From Woeseiaceae bacterium (GTDB lineage Bacteria > Pseudomonadota > Gammaproteobacteria > Steroidobacterales > Woeseiaceae), in the NCBI GenBank assembly GCA_030066735.1, contig JASJBB010000062.1:1-64000 (forward strand): 64,000 nucleotides of DNA, in the 5' to 3' direction. Below, in pieces: positions 15,996 to 63,771 of the stretch. A program made the translations under genes and the position numbers. The first letter of the stretch is position 1, and each line of letters starts with the position of its first letter. The notes under the pieces were generated by a model, which saw nothing but the letters and a program-made list of their open reading frames with translations, was not told where the DNA came from and did not search any database.

Positions 15996-18080
15996 CTAGA
16001 TCGACAGGCGGGAAATATCCGCGACGTCGAGGAACAGTGCGCGCAGCTGGCTCAACAGCGCCAGCCGGTTCGCGCGCGTTGCCTTGTCGTCGACATTGAC
16101 CATGACATCGTCGAAGAAGGTGTCGACCGGCTCGCGCAGCTCGGCCAGCGCTTGCAGAACCTCCGTGTAGCGGCGCTTCTCGAGCAGCGGCGTGACCTCC
16201 GCGGTGGCGCTCTCGAGCGCGCTGGCCAGCGCCTTCTCGGCCGCCTCGGTGAGCAGCTTTGCCTTGACCTCGTCGACGCCGTCGACGTCGGCCTGGCGCA
16301 GGATGTTGGCAATACGCTTGTTGGCCGCAGCGAGGCTGGCGGCGGGCTCGAGCCCGATAAAGGCCTGCACGGCGGCGAGCCGGCGGTCGAAATCGACGAG
16401 CGACGAGGGCCTGCGCGCAAGGACTGCGTCGAACGTCTCGGCCGCAAGCGATTCGTCCCGATCGAGGAAGTAGCGGCGCAGCCTTTCCGTGATAAACGTA
16501 TAGAGCTCGCCCTCGAGATCCGCGCCCTCTTCGGGCTTCTTGGGCTGCGCCACAACGGCCGTGGCAATCAGCGCATTCAGGTCAAGGTCGAGCTCGCACT
16601 CGATGAGCACGCGAATGATGCCGAGCGCGGCGCGCCGCAGTCCGAACGGGTCGCGGTTGCCCGAGGGTTTCTTGCCGAGGGCGAACACGCCGGCGAGCGT
16701 GTCGAGGCGGTCGGCGACGGCGAGCGCCTGGCCGTTGACCGACGCCGGCAGCTCGTCGCCGGCAAAGCGCGGCAGGTAATGCTCGGCAATCGGGTCGGCG
16801 ACCTCGGCCGGCTCCTTGTCCGACAGCGCGTAGTAGCGGCCCATGATGCCCTGCAGCTCGGGAAACTCACCGACCATGCCGGTTACGAGGTCGCACTTCG
16901 CCAGGAGCGCCGACTGGCGTAACGGGGCGACGTCCAGCTGCAGCGACTCGCCGATGTTTTCGGCCAGGCCGGCGACACGCATGGCCTTGTCATACAGGCT
17001 GCCCAGGCCGCGCTGGTAAACGACGTCGCGCAAGGAATCTGCGCGTGCCGACAACGGAATGCGCCGGTCCGACTCCCAGAAGAACGCGGCGTCCGCCAGG
17101 CGCGGGCGAATGACACGCTCGTTGCCGTCGCGGACCTGGTCCGGGTCCTTGCTTTCGAGGTTGGCGACCGTAATGAACTTCGCGAGCAGCTTGCCGTCGG
17201 TATCGGCAACCGGGAAATAACGCTGATGGCTGGTCAGGGTGGAAACGACGGCCTCACGGGGCAACTCGAGATACTGCTCGTCGAAAGAGCCGACAATGGG
17301 CACAGGCCACTCGACCAGCGCCGTGACCTCGTCGTAGAGGTCGTCGCCGCCAATCGCCGTGCCGCCCGCGGTATCGGCGGCTGCCGTAACGCCTTCGCGG
17401 ACCATGGCGAGGCGGCGCTCGAAGTCGGCGATAACGCGCCCCTCCTGCTCGAGGGTTCCCAGGTAGTCAGCCGGCGAGGCAATTGTTACCGGCCCGCGCG
17501 TGTGAAACCGGTGGCCTCGGGACTCGTTGCCCGCGGCCACGCCCATGATCGGCGCCTCGATGGTGTTCTCGCCGTGCAGTAACACGACCCAGTGCACGGG
17601 GCGCACAAACTCCGCGTCGCCGGCGCCCCAGCGCATGCGTCGCGGAATAGGCAGGGCGGCCAGCGCGCGTTCGATCAGTTCGGGCACCAGCTCCTCGGCC
17701 TTGCGGCCCTTTTCGACGACTTCGCTGATCAGCCACTCGCCCTTGTCGGTTTGCTCGCGGCCGAGCGCATCGACCTCGACGCCGCACTTCTTCGCGAATG
17801 CGGTCGCGGCCGGCGTCGGGTTACCGTCATCGTCGAAGGCGACCTTGACCGGTGGGCCTTTCTGCGTGCTCTTGCGATCCTGCTGGGCCAGGTCGAGACC
17901 CTCGATCAGTACGGCGAGACGTCGCGGGCTGGCATAAGCATGTACGGCGCCGTGGCCGAGCCGCGCATCGTCGACGCCCTGCTCGAGGCCGCTCGCAAAC
18001 GCGCCCATCAACGAACGCAGCGCCTTCGGGGGCAGCTCCTCGGTCCCGAGCTCGACCAGGAAGTCCGCCGCCTTACTCAT
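15996..18080 (-). CDS. glyS: Glycyl-tRNA synthetase beta subunit
   Basis: 694 residues from ATG at 18078-18080, beginning [21 protein letters not shown], the family start; a longer frame upstream only overlaps glyQ. It is the beta subunit of the alpha2beta2 bacterial enzyme and carries tRNA-recognition and HD-like domains. The C-terminal anticodon-binding region ends with [13 protein letters not shown]. The ATGAGTAA junction means the start overlaps the glyQ stop by 8 bases, ensuring matched synthesis of both subunits. Confidence 0.97.
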
Positions 18081-18999
18081 CGCCGCCTCCCACCGACTCG
18101 ACCATCGGGAAACCGAGCGCTTCGCGACTGGCGTAATAAGCCTCGGCCACGGCACGCGCCATCGTGCGCACCCGCAGGATGAAGCGCTGCCGCTCGCTGA
18201 CCGAAATGGCCTGGCGCGCGTCGAGCAGGTTGAACGTGTGTGAAGCCAGCAGCATCTGCTCGTACGCCGGCAGCGCGAGCCCGAGCTCGATCAGGCGCAC
18301 GGCTTCGTGTTCCGCATGGTCGAAGCCGTGGAACAGCTCGTCGACGTCGGCGACCTCGAAATTGTATTTCGACTGTTCGACCTCGTTCTGGTGATAGACG
18401 TCGCCGTAGGTTATGCGCCCCAGCGGTCCGTCGGTCCACACGAGGTCGAAGATGCTCTCGACGCCCTGCAGATACATCGCGAGGCGCTCGATGCCGTAAG
18501 TGATCTCCCCGGTAACCGGCCGGCATTCGAGTCCGCCGACCTGCTGGAAGTAGGTGAACTGCGTAATCTCCATGCCGTTGAGCCACACTTCCCAGCCGAG
18601 CCCCCAGGCGCCCAGCGTCGGCGACTCCCAGTTGTCCTCGACGAAGCGGATGTCGTGCACTTCGGGGTCAATGCCTATCGCGCGCAGCGAATCGAGGTAC
18701 AGCTCCTGGATGTCGTGGGGTGACGGCTTGATGACCACCTGGTACTGGTAATAATGCTGCAGCCGAAACGGGTTGTCGCCGTAACGGCCGTCCGTCGGCC
18801 GCCGCGACGGCTGCACGTAGGCGGCCGACCACGGCTCGGGACCGATCGCGCGCAGGAACGTCGCCGGATGAAACGTCCCCGCCCCCATTTCCTTGTCATA
18901 CGGCTGCATGACGACGCAGCCGCGCTCCGCCCAGAATTGCTGCAGCTTGAGGATCAGGTCCTGGAAGCTCAGTACGGACGACGGTTCTTGTTTAGCCAT
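18073..18999 (-). CDS. glyQ: Glycyl-tRNA synthetase alpha subunit
   Basis: Catalytic class II subunit of 308 residues, near the E. coli 303. The ATG at 18997-18999 ([16 protein letters not shown]) is preferred over an in-frame ATG 21 bases upstream because the family begins just before SFQDLI. Highly conserved stretches include [19 protein letters not shown] and [14 protein letters not shown]. It is first in the operon glyQ-glyS-plsC-M28-PfkB and is divergent from glnA; the 354-base gap holds a palindromic repeat and the glnA control region. Confidence 0.98.
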
Positions 19000-19079
19000 G
19001 AAAGATCGGTGGGGCCCCAAACCCGCGCAGTATATAGGTTTTCGGGCAATGTGCGAGGGGCTTGGCCGCAGGGCTTGAG

Positions 19080-19160
19080 AGGGCCGGCGGAGACGTTGCT
19101 CACCGGAAGTAAAGCGCAGCGCAGCGAGCCATGAAGGTGAGTGACGTCGCAGCCGGCCTG
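19080..19160 (+). repeat. 81-nt palindromic element, copy 1 (conserved 31-nt loop, variable arms)
   Basis: A 25-base left arm (19080-19104) is complementary to a 25-base right arm (19136-19160) at 19 of 25 positions. The arms enclose a 31-base core at 19105-19135 that starts GGAAGTAAAGCGC and ends GAGCCATGAA. The same core, with one difference, occurs on the opposite strand at 62831-62861, again inside 25-base complementary arms whose sequence is different. It lies in the glyQ-glnA gap. Nature unknown: structured RNA, miniature mobile element or protein-binding site are all possible. Confidence 0.75.
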
Positions 19161-19353: not shown

Positions 19354-20763
19354 ATGAAGCCCAAGGACGTTCTCGGCCTTCTAAAAGACGCCGAGGCAAA
19401 GTTTGTCGACTTTCGTTTCACGGACACGAAAGGCAAAGAACAACACGTAACGGTGCCCGCACACACGGTCGACGAAGACCTGTTTGAGGACGGCAAGATG
19501 TTCGACGGTTCGTCGATCTCCGGCTGGAAGGGCATCAATGAATCCGACATGATCCTGCTGCCGGATCCGTCGTCAGCGGTCGTTGACGTGTTCTCGGACG
19601 AGACCACGGTCAACCTGCGCTGCAACGTCATTGAGCCCGCAACCATGCAGGGCTACGATCGCTGCCCGCGCTCGCTGGCCGACCGCGCCGAGGCGTACCT
19701 GAAATCGACGGGTATCGCCGACGCCGCATACTTCGGCCCGGAAAACGAGTTCTTCGTTTTCGACAGTGTTTCCTGGGACGACACCATGCAGGGAGCGTTC
19801 TACAAGATCGACTCCGACGAGGGCGCCTGGAACACGGACCGCAGCCTGGAGGACGGCAACACGGGTCACCGGCCCACGGTCAAGGGCGGCTACTTCCCCG
19901 TACCCCCGGTCGACTCGCTGCACGACATCCGGTCCGCCATGTGCCTCGCGCTCGAGGACATGGGCGTTGTGACCGAAGTGCATCATCACGAGGTCGCGAC
20001 GGCCGGCCAGTGTGAAATCGGCGCGATGTTCAATACGTTGGTGCGCAAGGCGGACGAGGTGCAGATCCTCAAGTACGTCGTGCACAATGTTGCGCACGCC
20101 TACGGCAAGACGGCCACGTTCATGCCCAAGCCGCTCGTCAATGACAACGGCAATGGCATGCACGTCCACCAGTCGCTGTTCAAGGACGGCGAGAACCTGT
20201 TCGCCGGCGACGGCTACGGTGGCCTGTCCGAGACCGCGCTGTTTTACATCGGCGGCATCATCAAGCACGCCAAGGCCCTCAACGCCTTCGCCAATCCGTC
20301 GACGAACAGCTACAAGCGTCTCGTCCCGGGCTTCGAAGCGCCGACGATCCTCGCGTACTCGGCCCGCAACCGCTCGGCGTCGATTCGCATTCCGTACATC
20401 TCGAATCCGAAGGGCCGCCGCATCGAGGTTCGCTTCGGTGACTCGATGGCCAACCCGTACCTGTGTTTCGCCGCAATGATGATGGCGGGCCTCGACGGCA
20501 TCGCGAACAAGATCCATCCGGGCGATGCCGCGGACAAGGACCTGTACGACCTGCCGCCCGAGGAAGAGAAGCAGCTGGACCTGGTGGCGTTCTCGCTCGA
20601 GGAGGCGCTGGCCGCCCTCGATGAGGACCGCGGCTTCCTCAAGGCGGGCGACGTGTTCTCCGACGACCTGATCGATGCCTACATCGACCTCAAGATGGAG
20701 AACGTGACGAGGCTGCGGATGACGACCCACCCGGTCGAATTCGACATGTACTACAGCCTGTAA
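19354..20763 (+). CDS. glnA: Glutamine synthetase, type I
   Basis: Makes glutamine from glutamate, ammonia and ATP; the main ammonia-assimilating enzyme. 469 residues, starting at ATG 19354 after GGAGGAAAG. Catalytic signatures include [10 protein letters not shown] near 49-58, the latch loop, and [16 protein letters not shown]. The adenylylation site is Tyr 398 in [10 protein letters not shown], so this is the GSI-beta form controlled by GlnE. Upstream are a sigma-54 promoter and an NtrC-type site; downstream a hairpin and then DUF4124-ntrB-ntrC. Confidence 0.98.
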
Positions 20764-62595: not shown

Positions 62596-62796
62596 ATGAA
62601 AATTATCGTATTGATTCTGCTCGCGGCAATTGTCATTGCCCTGTTTTCCGGCCTCTTCTTCCTGGCCAAGGACAAGGACCACCCGCCGTCGCCACGTCTG
62701 CTCACGGCCCTGAAAGTCCGCGTCACCTTATCGATACTACTCGTGGTGCTGCTCGTCGTCTCGTACAAGATGGGCTGGCTTACCGGATTCGAATAA
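62596..62796 (+). CDS. DUF2909 twin-transmembrane protein
   Basis: 66 residues with two helices (about 2-24 and 44-60) and a short charged loop (AKDKDHPPSP). Such proteins are found beside cytochrome oxidase genes in gammaproteobacteria, often on the opposite strand between coxIII and SURF1 as here. Function unknown. Followed by the second 81-nt palindromic element. Confidence 0.85.
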   Translation: MKIIVLILLAAIVIALFSGLFFLAKDKDHPPSPRLLTALKVRVTLSILLVVLLVVSYKMGWLTGFE

Positions 62797-62805
62797 ACCG
62801 ACAGA

Positions 62806-62886
62806 GGCCGCACTCCGGCAGGCCTTTACCTTCATGGCTCGCTGCGCCGCGCTTTACTTCCGGGAAAGGCCTGCCGGAGCGTGGCC
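62806..62886 (-). repeat. 81-nt palindromic element, copy 2
   Basis: Arms 62806-62830 and 62862-62886 are complementary at 22 of 25 positions (perfect for 15 bases, CTCCGGCAGGCCTTT). They enclose 62831-62861, the reverse complement of the copy-1 core with one base changed. The arms are unrelated in sequence to those at 19080-19160 but have the same length. It fills the gap between convergent DUF2909 and coxIII, where it may also act as a bidirectional terminator. Confidence 0.78.
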
Positions 62887-62904: not shown

Positions 62905-63771
62905 TCACATCCAATAGACGAAGACGTACAGACCAACCCAGACAGCGTCAACGAAGTGCCAATACCAGGCGGTCGCCTCGAACGCGAAGTGATTGTCGGG
63001 CGTGAAGTGCCCCCTGATGACGCGCAGCCAGATGATCGTCAGCATGATGGCGCCGATCGTCACGTGCATGCCGTGGAAGCCCGTCAGCATGAAGAACGTC
63101 GAGCCGTAGATGCCGGAGTCGAGCCTGAGATTCAGGTCCTGGTAGGCATGGACGTACTCGACGGCCTGCATGTAAACGAAGATGAAGCCGAGGATGAACG
63201 TCAGCGCGAGGAACGTCGACAGGATGCCGCGTTTGCCGGCAATCAGTGCGTGGTGCGCGATCGTGATCGTGACACTACTGGTCAGCAGGATGGCGGTGTT
63301 GATCAGCGGCAGGCCGAGCGGGCCCATCGTCTGAAACTCGCCGCCCACCTCGCCAGGGCCGCCTGTCGGCCAGGTCGCCTCGTAGCCTTCCCAGAGCAGC
63401 AGGTTGGTAAAGAAGTTGTTGCTCTCTCCCCCGAGCCAGGGCACGGACATGTTGCGGGCATAGAACAGTGCGCCGAAGAATGCCGCGAAGAACATCACCT
63501 CGGAGAAAATGAACCAGAACATGCCCATGCGGAACGACTTGTCCACCTGCGGGTTGTACAGGCCTCCCTCGCTCTCGTTAATGACGGTGCCGAACCAGCC
63601 GGTCAGCATGAAGATCATGATGGCGACGCCGGCCATCATTACCCAGAAGCCGAAGTCGGCGCCGTTGAGCCAGGTGGATACCCCCAGCATCAGGAACAGC
63701 AGGCCGATCGACCCGACGATGGGCCAGTGGCTGCCGTGAGGGACGTAATACTTATCTTGCGCGTGAGACAT
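62905..63771 (-). CDS. coxC: Cytochrome c oxidase subunit III
   Basis: 288 residues, seven helices. Family blocks: SHWPIVGSIGLLFLMLG at the start, FRMGMFWFIFSEVMFFAAFF, GFHGMHVTIGAIMLT, and the ending WYWHFVDAVWVGLYVFVYWM. It is a structural subunit of the aa3-type oxidase core. The start overlaps the end of ctaG by 20 bases. Confidence 0.97.
   Translation of the reverse strand: MSHAQDKYYVPHGSHWPIVGSIGLLFLMLGVSTWLNGADFGFWVMMAGVAIMIFMLTGWFGTVINESEGGLYNPQVDKSFRMGMFWFIFSEVMFFAAFFGALFYARNMSVPWLGGESNNFFTNLLLWEGYEATWPTGGPGEVGGEFQTMGPLGLPLINTAILLTSSVTITIAHHALIAGKRGILSTFLALTFILGFIFVYMQAVEYVHAYQDLNLRLDSGIYGSTFFMLTGFHGMHVTIGAIMLTIIWLRVIRGHFTPDNHFAFEATAWYWHFVDAVWVGLYVFVYWM

Follow-up and report, generated by a model that had tools for sequence, protein, structure and literature searches.

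A palindromic element with a conserved loop and covarying arms is dispersed through marine-sediment bacteria

Introduction

Which part of a palindrome is under selection when its loop stays nearly the same from copy to copy and its arms do not? This question is raised by two elements in the window, i.e., the stretch of 64,000 nucleotides of Woeseiaceae DNA that was analyzed here. A sequence-only reading had described them as two 81-nt elements on opposite strands, built of 25 + 31 + 25 bases, with a core that differs at one position and with arms that share no evident sequence yet remain self-complementary, and it had concluded that selection keeps structure in the arms and sequence in the loop. 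Three interpretations had been offered, namely a structured RNA family, a miniature mobile element, or a site for a loop-recognizing protein. We followed this up in the genome of the window, in its genus, and in its order.

Results

Anatomy of the two copies

Copy 1 lies at 19080-19160 on the plus strand and copy 2 at 62806-62886 on the minus strand, separated by about 43.7 kb, and each has a 31-base loop between two arms of 25 bases (Table 1). A single base differs between the two loops, in agreement with the initial description. The 19 and 22 complementary positions of 25 that had been counted turned out to be the Watson-Crick pairs: when the three G.T pairs of copy 1 and the single one of copy 2 are added, with positions numbered outwards from the loop, the arms pair at 22 and 23 of 25 positions, respectively. 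The statement about the arms needs qualification, as they differ without being entirely unrelated: on average, two copies have 48% of their arm bases in common, and the likeness is found mainly close to the loop.

Table 1. Features of the two copies and of their neighboring genes in the window.
Feature	Position	Strand	Remarks
Copy 1, 5' arm	19080..19104	+	pairs with 19136-19160 at 22/25, 3 of them G.T
Copy 1, conserved 31-base loop	19105..19135	+	commonest loop form, 27/95 copies including copy 1
Copy 1, loop-tip mini-hairpin GC-GNA-GC	19119..19125	+	loop bases 15-21
Copy 1, 3' arm	19136..19160	+	pairs with 5' arm
Copy 2, 5' arm	62862..62886	-	pairs with 62806-62830 at 23/25, 1 of them G.T
Copy 2, conserved loop	62831..62861	-	one base different from copy 1 loop
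Copy 2, 3' arm	62806..62830	-	pairs with 5' arm
Glycyl-tRNA synthetase alpha subunit gene	18073..19020	-	Pfam PF02091, E 3.4e-149; 5' end towards copy 1; limits are those of the ORF, not a determined start
Glutamine synthetase gene	19354..20763	+	Pfam PF00120 and PF03951; copy 1 upstream
DUF2909 gene	62596..62796	+	Pfam PF11137; 9 nt from stop codon to copy 2
Cytochrome c oxidase subunit III gene	62905..63771	-	Pfam PF00510; convergent; 18 nt from stop codon to copy 2

Copy 1 is placed between the divergent glycyl-tRNA synthetase alpha and glutamine synthetase genes, which is rare for the family (4/94), and copy 2 between the convergent DUF2909 and cytochrome c oxidase subunit III genes. As single-stranded DNA, the loop strand of copy 1 folds with -23.8 kcal/mol and the opposite strand with -19.5 kcal/mol; for copy 2, the values are -26.2 and -28.1 kcal/mol, the opposite strand folding slightly better. 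Next to copy 1, between 19160 and 19280 and in the orthologous stretches across the genus, repeated TGCACTATAATGGTGC-like motifs recur upstream of glutamine synthetase, which we take to resemble NtrC-type sites.

Distribution of the element

In the genome of the window (3.34 Mb in 173 contigs, 85% complete), blastn found 23 places for the element, which is well beyond chance. The 33-base core was present at 17 places with at most three mismatches, and its reversed control at none. Exact core matches in the genome collection were found in seven stretches, with two Woeseiaceae MAGs accounting for six of them and a gammaproteobacterial MAG for the seventh, and the loop pattern was detected in 14 of 60 genomes including the window's own, 14/14 in one genus. 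We built a covariance model on 19 copies of the window's genome, and at E <=0.001 it matched 60 of the 73 genomes in the genus, several of them with one weak match each; its E-values are rough because the calibration was short. With about 61 candidates scored per genome at most, the highest counts per genome were at least 59, at least 58, and at least 52. An even draw across the order, limited to 18 scored candidates for each genome, gave matches at E <=1e-5 in 11 of 66 genera (51 of 246 genomes). The element spans several families of one order. The search for further copies proposed with the sequence-only reading was thus successful in the genome as well as in relatives, and the arms of these copies are complementary.

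Rfam gave no match at gathering score across the window and none up to E 1 at copy 1; viral contigs contained no exact match to one form of the loop, and plasmids no match for copy 1. In the literature searched, with subscription journals mostly outside, the 15-base core string was absent, and we recognized no description of this family.

Covariation of the arms and strand specificity of the fold

Of the 23 copies in the genome, 19 were used for the pairing analysis; two were cut by a contig end, one lacked the right half, and one had a shifted loop edge. In these 19 copies, 91.4% of the stem cells were paired as compared to 64.1% in shuffles, 22 of the 25 pairs changed on both sides, and none of 500 shuffles reached any of the five measures. 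The covariation score was 0.740, whereas shuffles gave 0.238 and slid pairings no more than 0.158, which bears out the view that the arms are kept for structure and the loop for sequence. A second set comprised 36 matches of the model, located in 20 further stretches of which several come from other genera; here the score was 0.880 versus 0.208, and 25 of 25 pairs changed on both sides. The alignment of this set had been fitted to the model, and it leans in the model's favor. Among the 36 matches, five correspond to the reverse strand of a copy already listed, and two are cut by a contig end.

Since a G.T cell turns into A.C when the opposite strand is read, an excess of G.T means that a single strand is held to the fold. 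In 109 unique copies, which are related and therefore not independent, the inner 22 pairs contained 209 G.T and 32 A.C cells in a fixed register and without filtering, and the 56 copies in which 18 or more of the 22 pairs are Watson-Crick contained 70 and 4. The counts of 186 versus 18 (97 of the 109 copies) and 274 versus 22 (142 copies) lean towards G.T, because these copies were chosen, and in the larger set also aligned, by a pairing that accepts G.T and not A.C. This asymmetry bears on the idea that hairpin-templated repair, i.e., quasi-palindrome correction, keeps the arms complementary while the structure is not selected. Such repair could account for the fact that arms are often almost fully replaced between orthologous sites and still complementary, but it predicts G.T and A.C to be equally frequent, and in view of the unfiltered counts we consider it scarcely credible.

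The unfiltered counts were also sorted by the neighboring genes: G.T versus A.C was 100 versus 15 with convergent neighbors (53 copies), 36 versus 4 in the sense co-directional class (19 copies), 45 versus 4 in the antisense co-directional class, in which only the antisense gene reads in (21 copies; 36 versus 2 in the 16 filtered ones), and 12 versus 4 with divergent neighbors (7 copies). One folded strand is what counts.

The loop tip

Loop bases 15 to 21 have the form GC-GNA-GC, with all four bases occurring at N. According to a hand tally, a GNA or GNNA tip is kept in 110 of 124 copies and absent in 14. In six copies, the closing pair of the tip is swapped to C-G (CC-GNA-GG), in three the loop is one base longer and has GNNA, and one copy has a longer hairpin that retains a GCA tip. 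Longer loop variants were seen at L157, L161, and L223, with an extra small hairpin within the conserved loop or with a replaced middle. The tip corresponds to the d(GCGNAGC) mini-hairpin, as it combines GC-GNA-GC and a free N with GNNA in longer forms; in the part of the source consulted, loops of the GNA or GNNA type with at least two closing G-C pairs are extraordinarily stable DNA mini-hairpins, known there as a structural motif, whereas the element is a repeat family (PMC4686876). The tip therefore suggests DNA, though RNA is also able to form this hairpin.

Is the element an RNA?

The conserved loop, the covarying stem, and the tolerance of G.U pairs are classical signs of RNA, and G.T pairs in the stems of REP elements were read as a hint of RNA by the authors of a survey, in its consulted part (PMC3733652). 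If the element were a structured RNA family, the loop strand would be transcribed, and a protein or RNA would read the loop in a 3' UTR or small RNA. Of the 109 copies in the placement set, which relies on a simple codon-usage gene caller, nine overlap a predicted ORF and six have no neighbor; the 94 placed copies comprise 52 in convergent, 38 in co-directional (17 sense, 21 antisense), and 4 in divergent junctions. In 69 of the 94, a sense upstream gene points into the element (52 convergent and 17 co-directional), in agreement with this reading. However, the wobble bias is equally strong where the antisense gene alone reads in, and this speaks for single-stranded DNA over 3'-UTR RNA. In addition, sense and antisense placement are similar among co-directional copies, and the upstream flanks are unlike among copies beyond the arms, making a shared promoter hard to accommodate. 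As the G.T bias is independent of the transcribed strand, the tip is of the GNA/GNNA type, and Rfam has no match, the RNA reading is weakened, and we regard it as unlikely.

Placement between facing genes

The element is dispersed through marine-sediment bacteria, mostly between the ends of facing genes. We analyzed the placement in the copy-rich relative G026, using 775 kb taken around its copies. Convergent junctions held 33 of the 49 intergenic copies, two further copies overlapping ORFs, although convergent junctions account for only 97 of the 615 junctions (16%) and 18% of the intergenic bases in these stretches. The median gap from a copy to each stop codon was 7 nt. For convergent junctions with spacers of up to 250 nt, the median spacer was 9 nt without a copy (47 junctions) and 95 nt with a copy (31 junctions), so the element sits wedged in otherwise nearly closed junctions.

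This position between convergent stop codons would also be expected of a host-selected bidirectional terminator or 3'-end stabilizer, in which the common loop is incidental and spread occurs by recombination without a transposition enzyme, and the different palindromes at the same orthologous junction in other species (see below) fit this as well. T-runs do not: of the 109 copies, one has a T4 within 15 nt of the stem on the loop strand and two have one on the other strand, with 4 and 3 in controls farther out, so that an intrinsic terminator T-run after the hairpin is not above control stretches in the 109 copies, the hairpin itself being present. Moreover, the 47 convergent junctions of the same stretches do without the element, and the near-invariant loop and the single-strand constraint are left unexplained. 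A terminator or stabilizer function as the origin of the family is therefore improbable in our view.

A preference for one replication strand was not seen by GC skew: element orientation showed no relation to it in 51 copies (22 positive, p 0.38), which counts against a mechanism bound to the replication strand, as such a mechanism predicts a relation.

Orthologous sites

We traced one convergent junction across 30 loci in the genus, namely the best 30 of a search that matched 73 of 73 genomes. By the model, the element is present in 10 of the 30, in either orientation (e.g., L199 and L200), one of the ten being a weak match (L222). Four spacers without the element measure 6, 7, 11, and 16 nt. 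By eye, five loci contain other palindromes (L205, L206, L210, L211, and L213) and L216 a partial copy, and the remaining loci have other sequence. No target-site duplication was noticed by eye at this junction.

The palindromes at L205, L210, L211, and L213 belong to a different family (GGTGTCAGTCACCTTATTT-like and GGTACCGGACACC-like), and the model finds no loop element in the genomes G070, G077, G035, and G092 (the last 62% complete), which carry palindromes of these kinds. The palindrome at L206 has arms of about 25 bases and an unrelated loop and is possibly a sister family with another loop.

At the site upstream of glutamine synthetase, L149 and L152 carry the element in one orientation, and L150 and L151 carry it in the opposite one; in L151, the arm mismatch is reversed too, as judged by eye. 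Both orientations are common among orthologous pairs, and the arms of such pairs are often no more alike than those of other copies, with arm identities above 90% in L060/L101 and L067/L117. This pattern is compatible with both inheritance and renewed arrival, and as some sites are occupied in several species, part of it is inheritance with retention and not movement.

Most copies are single. In inverted doublets, the loop-reverse copy precedes the loop-forward copy in 11 of 11 cases from eight genomes (8/8 by genome). A single tandem pair entered the count; another, at L064, escaped the pattern.

Comparison with REP elements and other palindromes

REP elements are extragenic palindromes that lie mostly in convergent or unidirectional spacers close to stop codons, as the consulted parts of three papers describe them (PMC3733652, PMC3116915, PMC8266576). 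The element shares with REPs and REPINs, as characterized there, the dispersed extragenic location near stop codons, the G.T pairs, the occurrence of inverted doublets, and probably the fold as single-stranded DNA, and REP-like placement was indeed found. In the GTAG REP families surveyed, however, the stem has 5-13 bp and the loop 2-20 nt in the consulted part (PMC3733652), whereas the element combines a stem of about 25 bp that is nearly free in sequence with a fixed loop of 31 nt. REPINs have conserved ends and a variable middle, and the element is the reverse. No conserved tag was found at either foot in 109 copies: GTAG occurred in 11 copies on the left and 2 on the right (4 and 3 in control stretches), and CGTC in 1 and 3 (8 and 5 in control stretches). 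As the tag, the stem and loop size, and the link to RAYT all deviate, we class the element as REP-like and not as REP. Hairpins of the GTAGGAGCGCGC...-type that resemble classical GTAG REPs adjoin the element in genome G034 (L226 spacer, flanks of L137 and L162).

NEMIS/Correia and ERIC elements are short intergenic MITE-like palindromes that possibly act in RNA and whose terminal repeats are conserved between copies. In contrast, the repeats of the element vary and its center is fixed. Strand-specific single-stranded hairpins recognized by structure are also found at the ends of IS200/IS605 and in integron attC sites, as mentioned in the consulted part of PMC8266576.

Search for a mobilizing gene

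The transposase search covered the Y1 family. A RAYT-type transposase is absent from the genome of the window, and Y1_Tnp genes are present in 5 of 7 genomes and, in the larger set, in 48 of the 73 genomes of the genus. Their presence is not correlated with copy number (Spearman -0.12, p 0.32, 73 genomes), though a gene may have been missed where assemblies are incomplete; 10 of the 13 genomes without a copy have a RAYT-type transposase, and the model detects no element in five RAYT loci of about 3 kb. RAYT was therefore rejected as the mover. That the element is a true REP/REPIN family moved by RAYT (TnpA-REP) is, accordingly, very improbable: the shared niche at stop codons and convergent junctions, the oriented doublets, and the single-strand fold agree with what the consulted parts of the REP literature report (PMC3733652, PMC3116915, PMC8266576), but the GTAG/CGTC tag is not conserved, stem and loop are larger, and the RAYT association is lacking.

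An autonomous composite was also rejected, since a 5.4-kb contig bounded by two copies contains ordinary genes by eye, an Ada/AlkA-like one included, and no transposase was recognized by eye in its translations. At L188 (1390-2880), a 1.5-kb insert lies between two copies and two convergent genes and contains a 375-aa ORF without Pfam match; this insert is flanked by an imperfect direct repeat (gcggccggtggtgg...ccctctgcc).

Discussion

Of the initial three readings, the mobile element and the site for a loop-recognizing protein fit best, and they do so as one, with the structured RNA family weakened. We propose that the element represents a family of small non-autonomous mobile palindromes that is analogous to REP, recognized by its loop, and without GTAG tag or RAYT association, and we would give this proposal about an even chance of being correct. 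It is based on the dispersal, the covariation, the strand bias, the presence and absence at orthologous sites, the location, the oriented doublets, and the loop tip. Against it stand the lack of a mobilizing gene in our search, the absent tracking with RAYT, the target-site duplication that was not noticed, and the negative result with GC skew, and further the better fold of the opposite strand in copy 2 and the 14 of 124 copies that have no GNA or GNNA tip.

In such a mobile family, the loop strand would fold as single-stranded DNA, and an enzyme supplied in trans would bind the loop together with the tip hairpin and copy or excise the unit. The long stem would serve as a holder, and its sequence would be irrelevant. 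Insertions would persist between facing genes, where they would be harmless, and the long hairpin may there in addition form a 3'-end barrier to transcripts from both directions. Taking this further, the family could be a class of mobile palindromes separate from REP/RAYT, in which a single-stranded DNA hairpin is addressed through its loop, the stem needs only length and shape, an undescribed enzyme moves the unit, and the element flips at a fixed site and settles between convergent stop codons; this extension is possible, and we put it forward only tentatively.

In the element, recognition of the loop is set apart from stem sequence more clearly than in the REP families compared, as far as the consulted parts of their descriptions extend, and the element raises the question of which protein reads the conserved loop. 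Unrelated palindromes occupy the same convergent junction in different species, and the empty, filled, and inverted orthologous sites offer a way to follow how bacterial palindromes arrive, flip, and persist.
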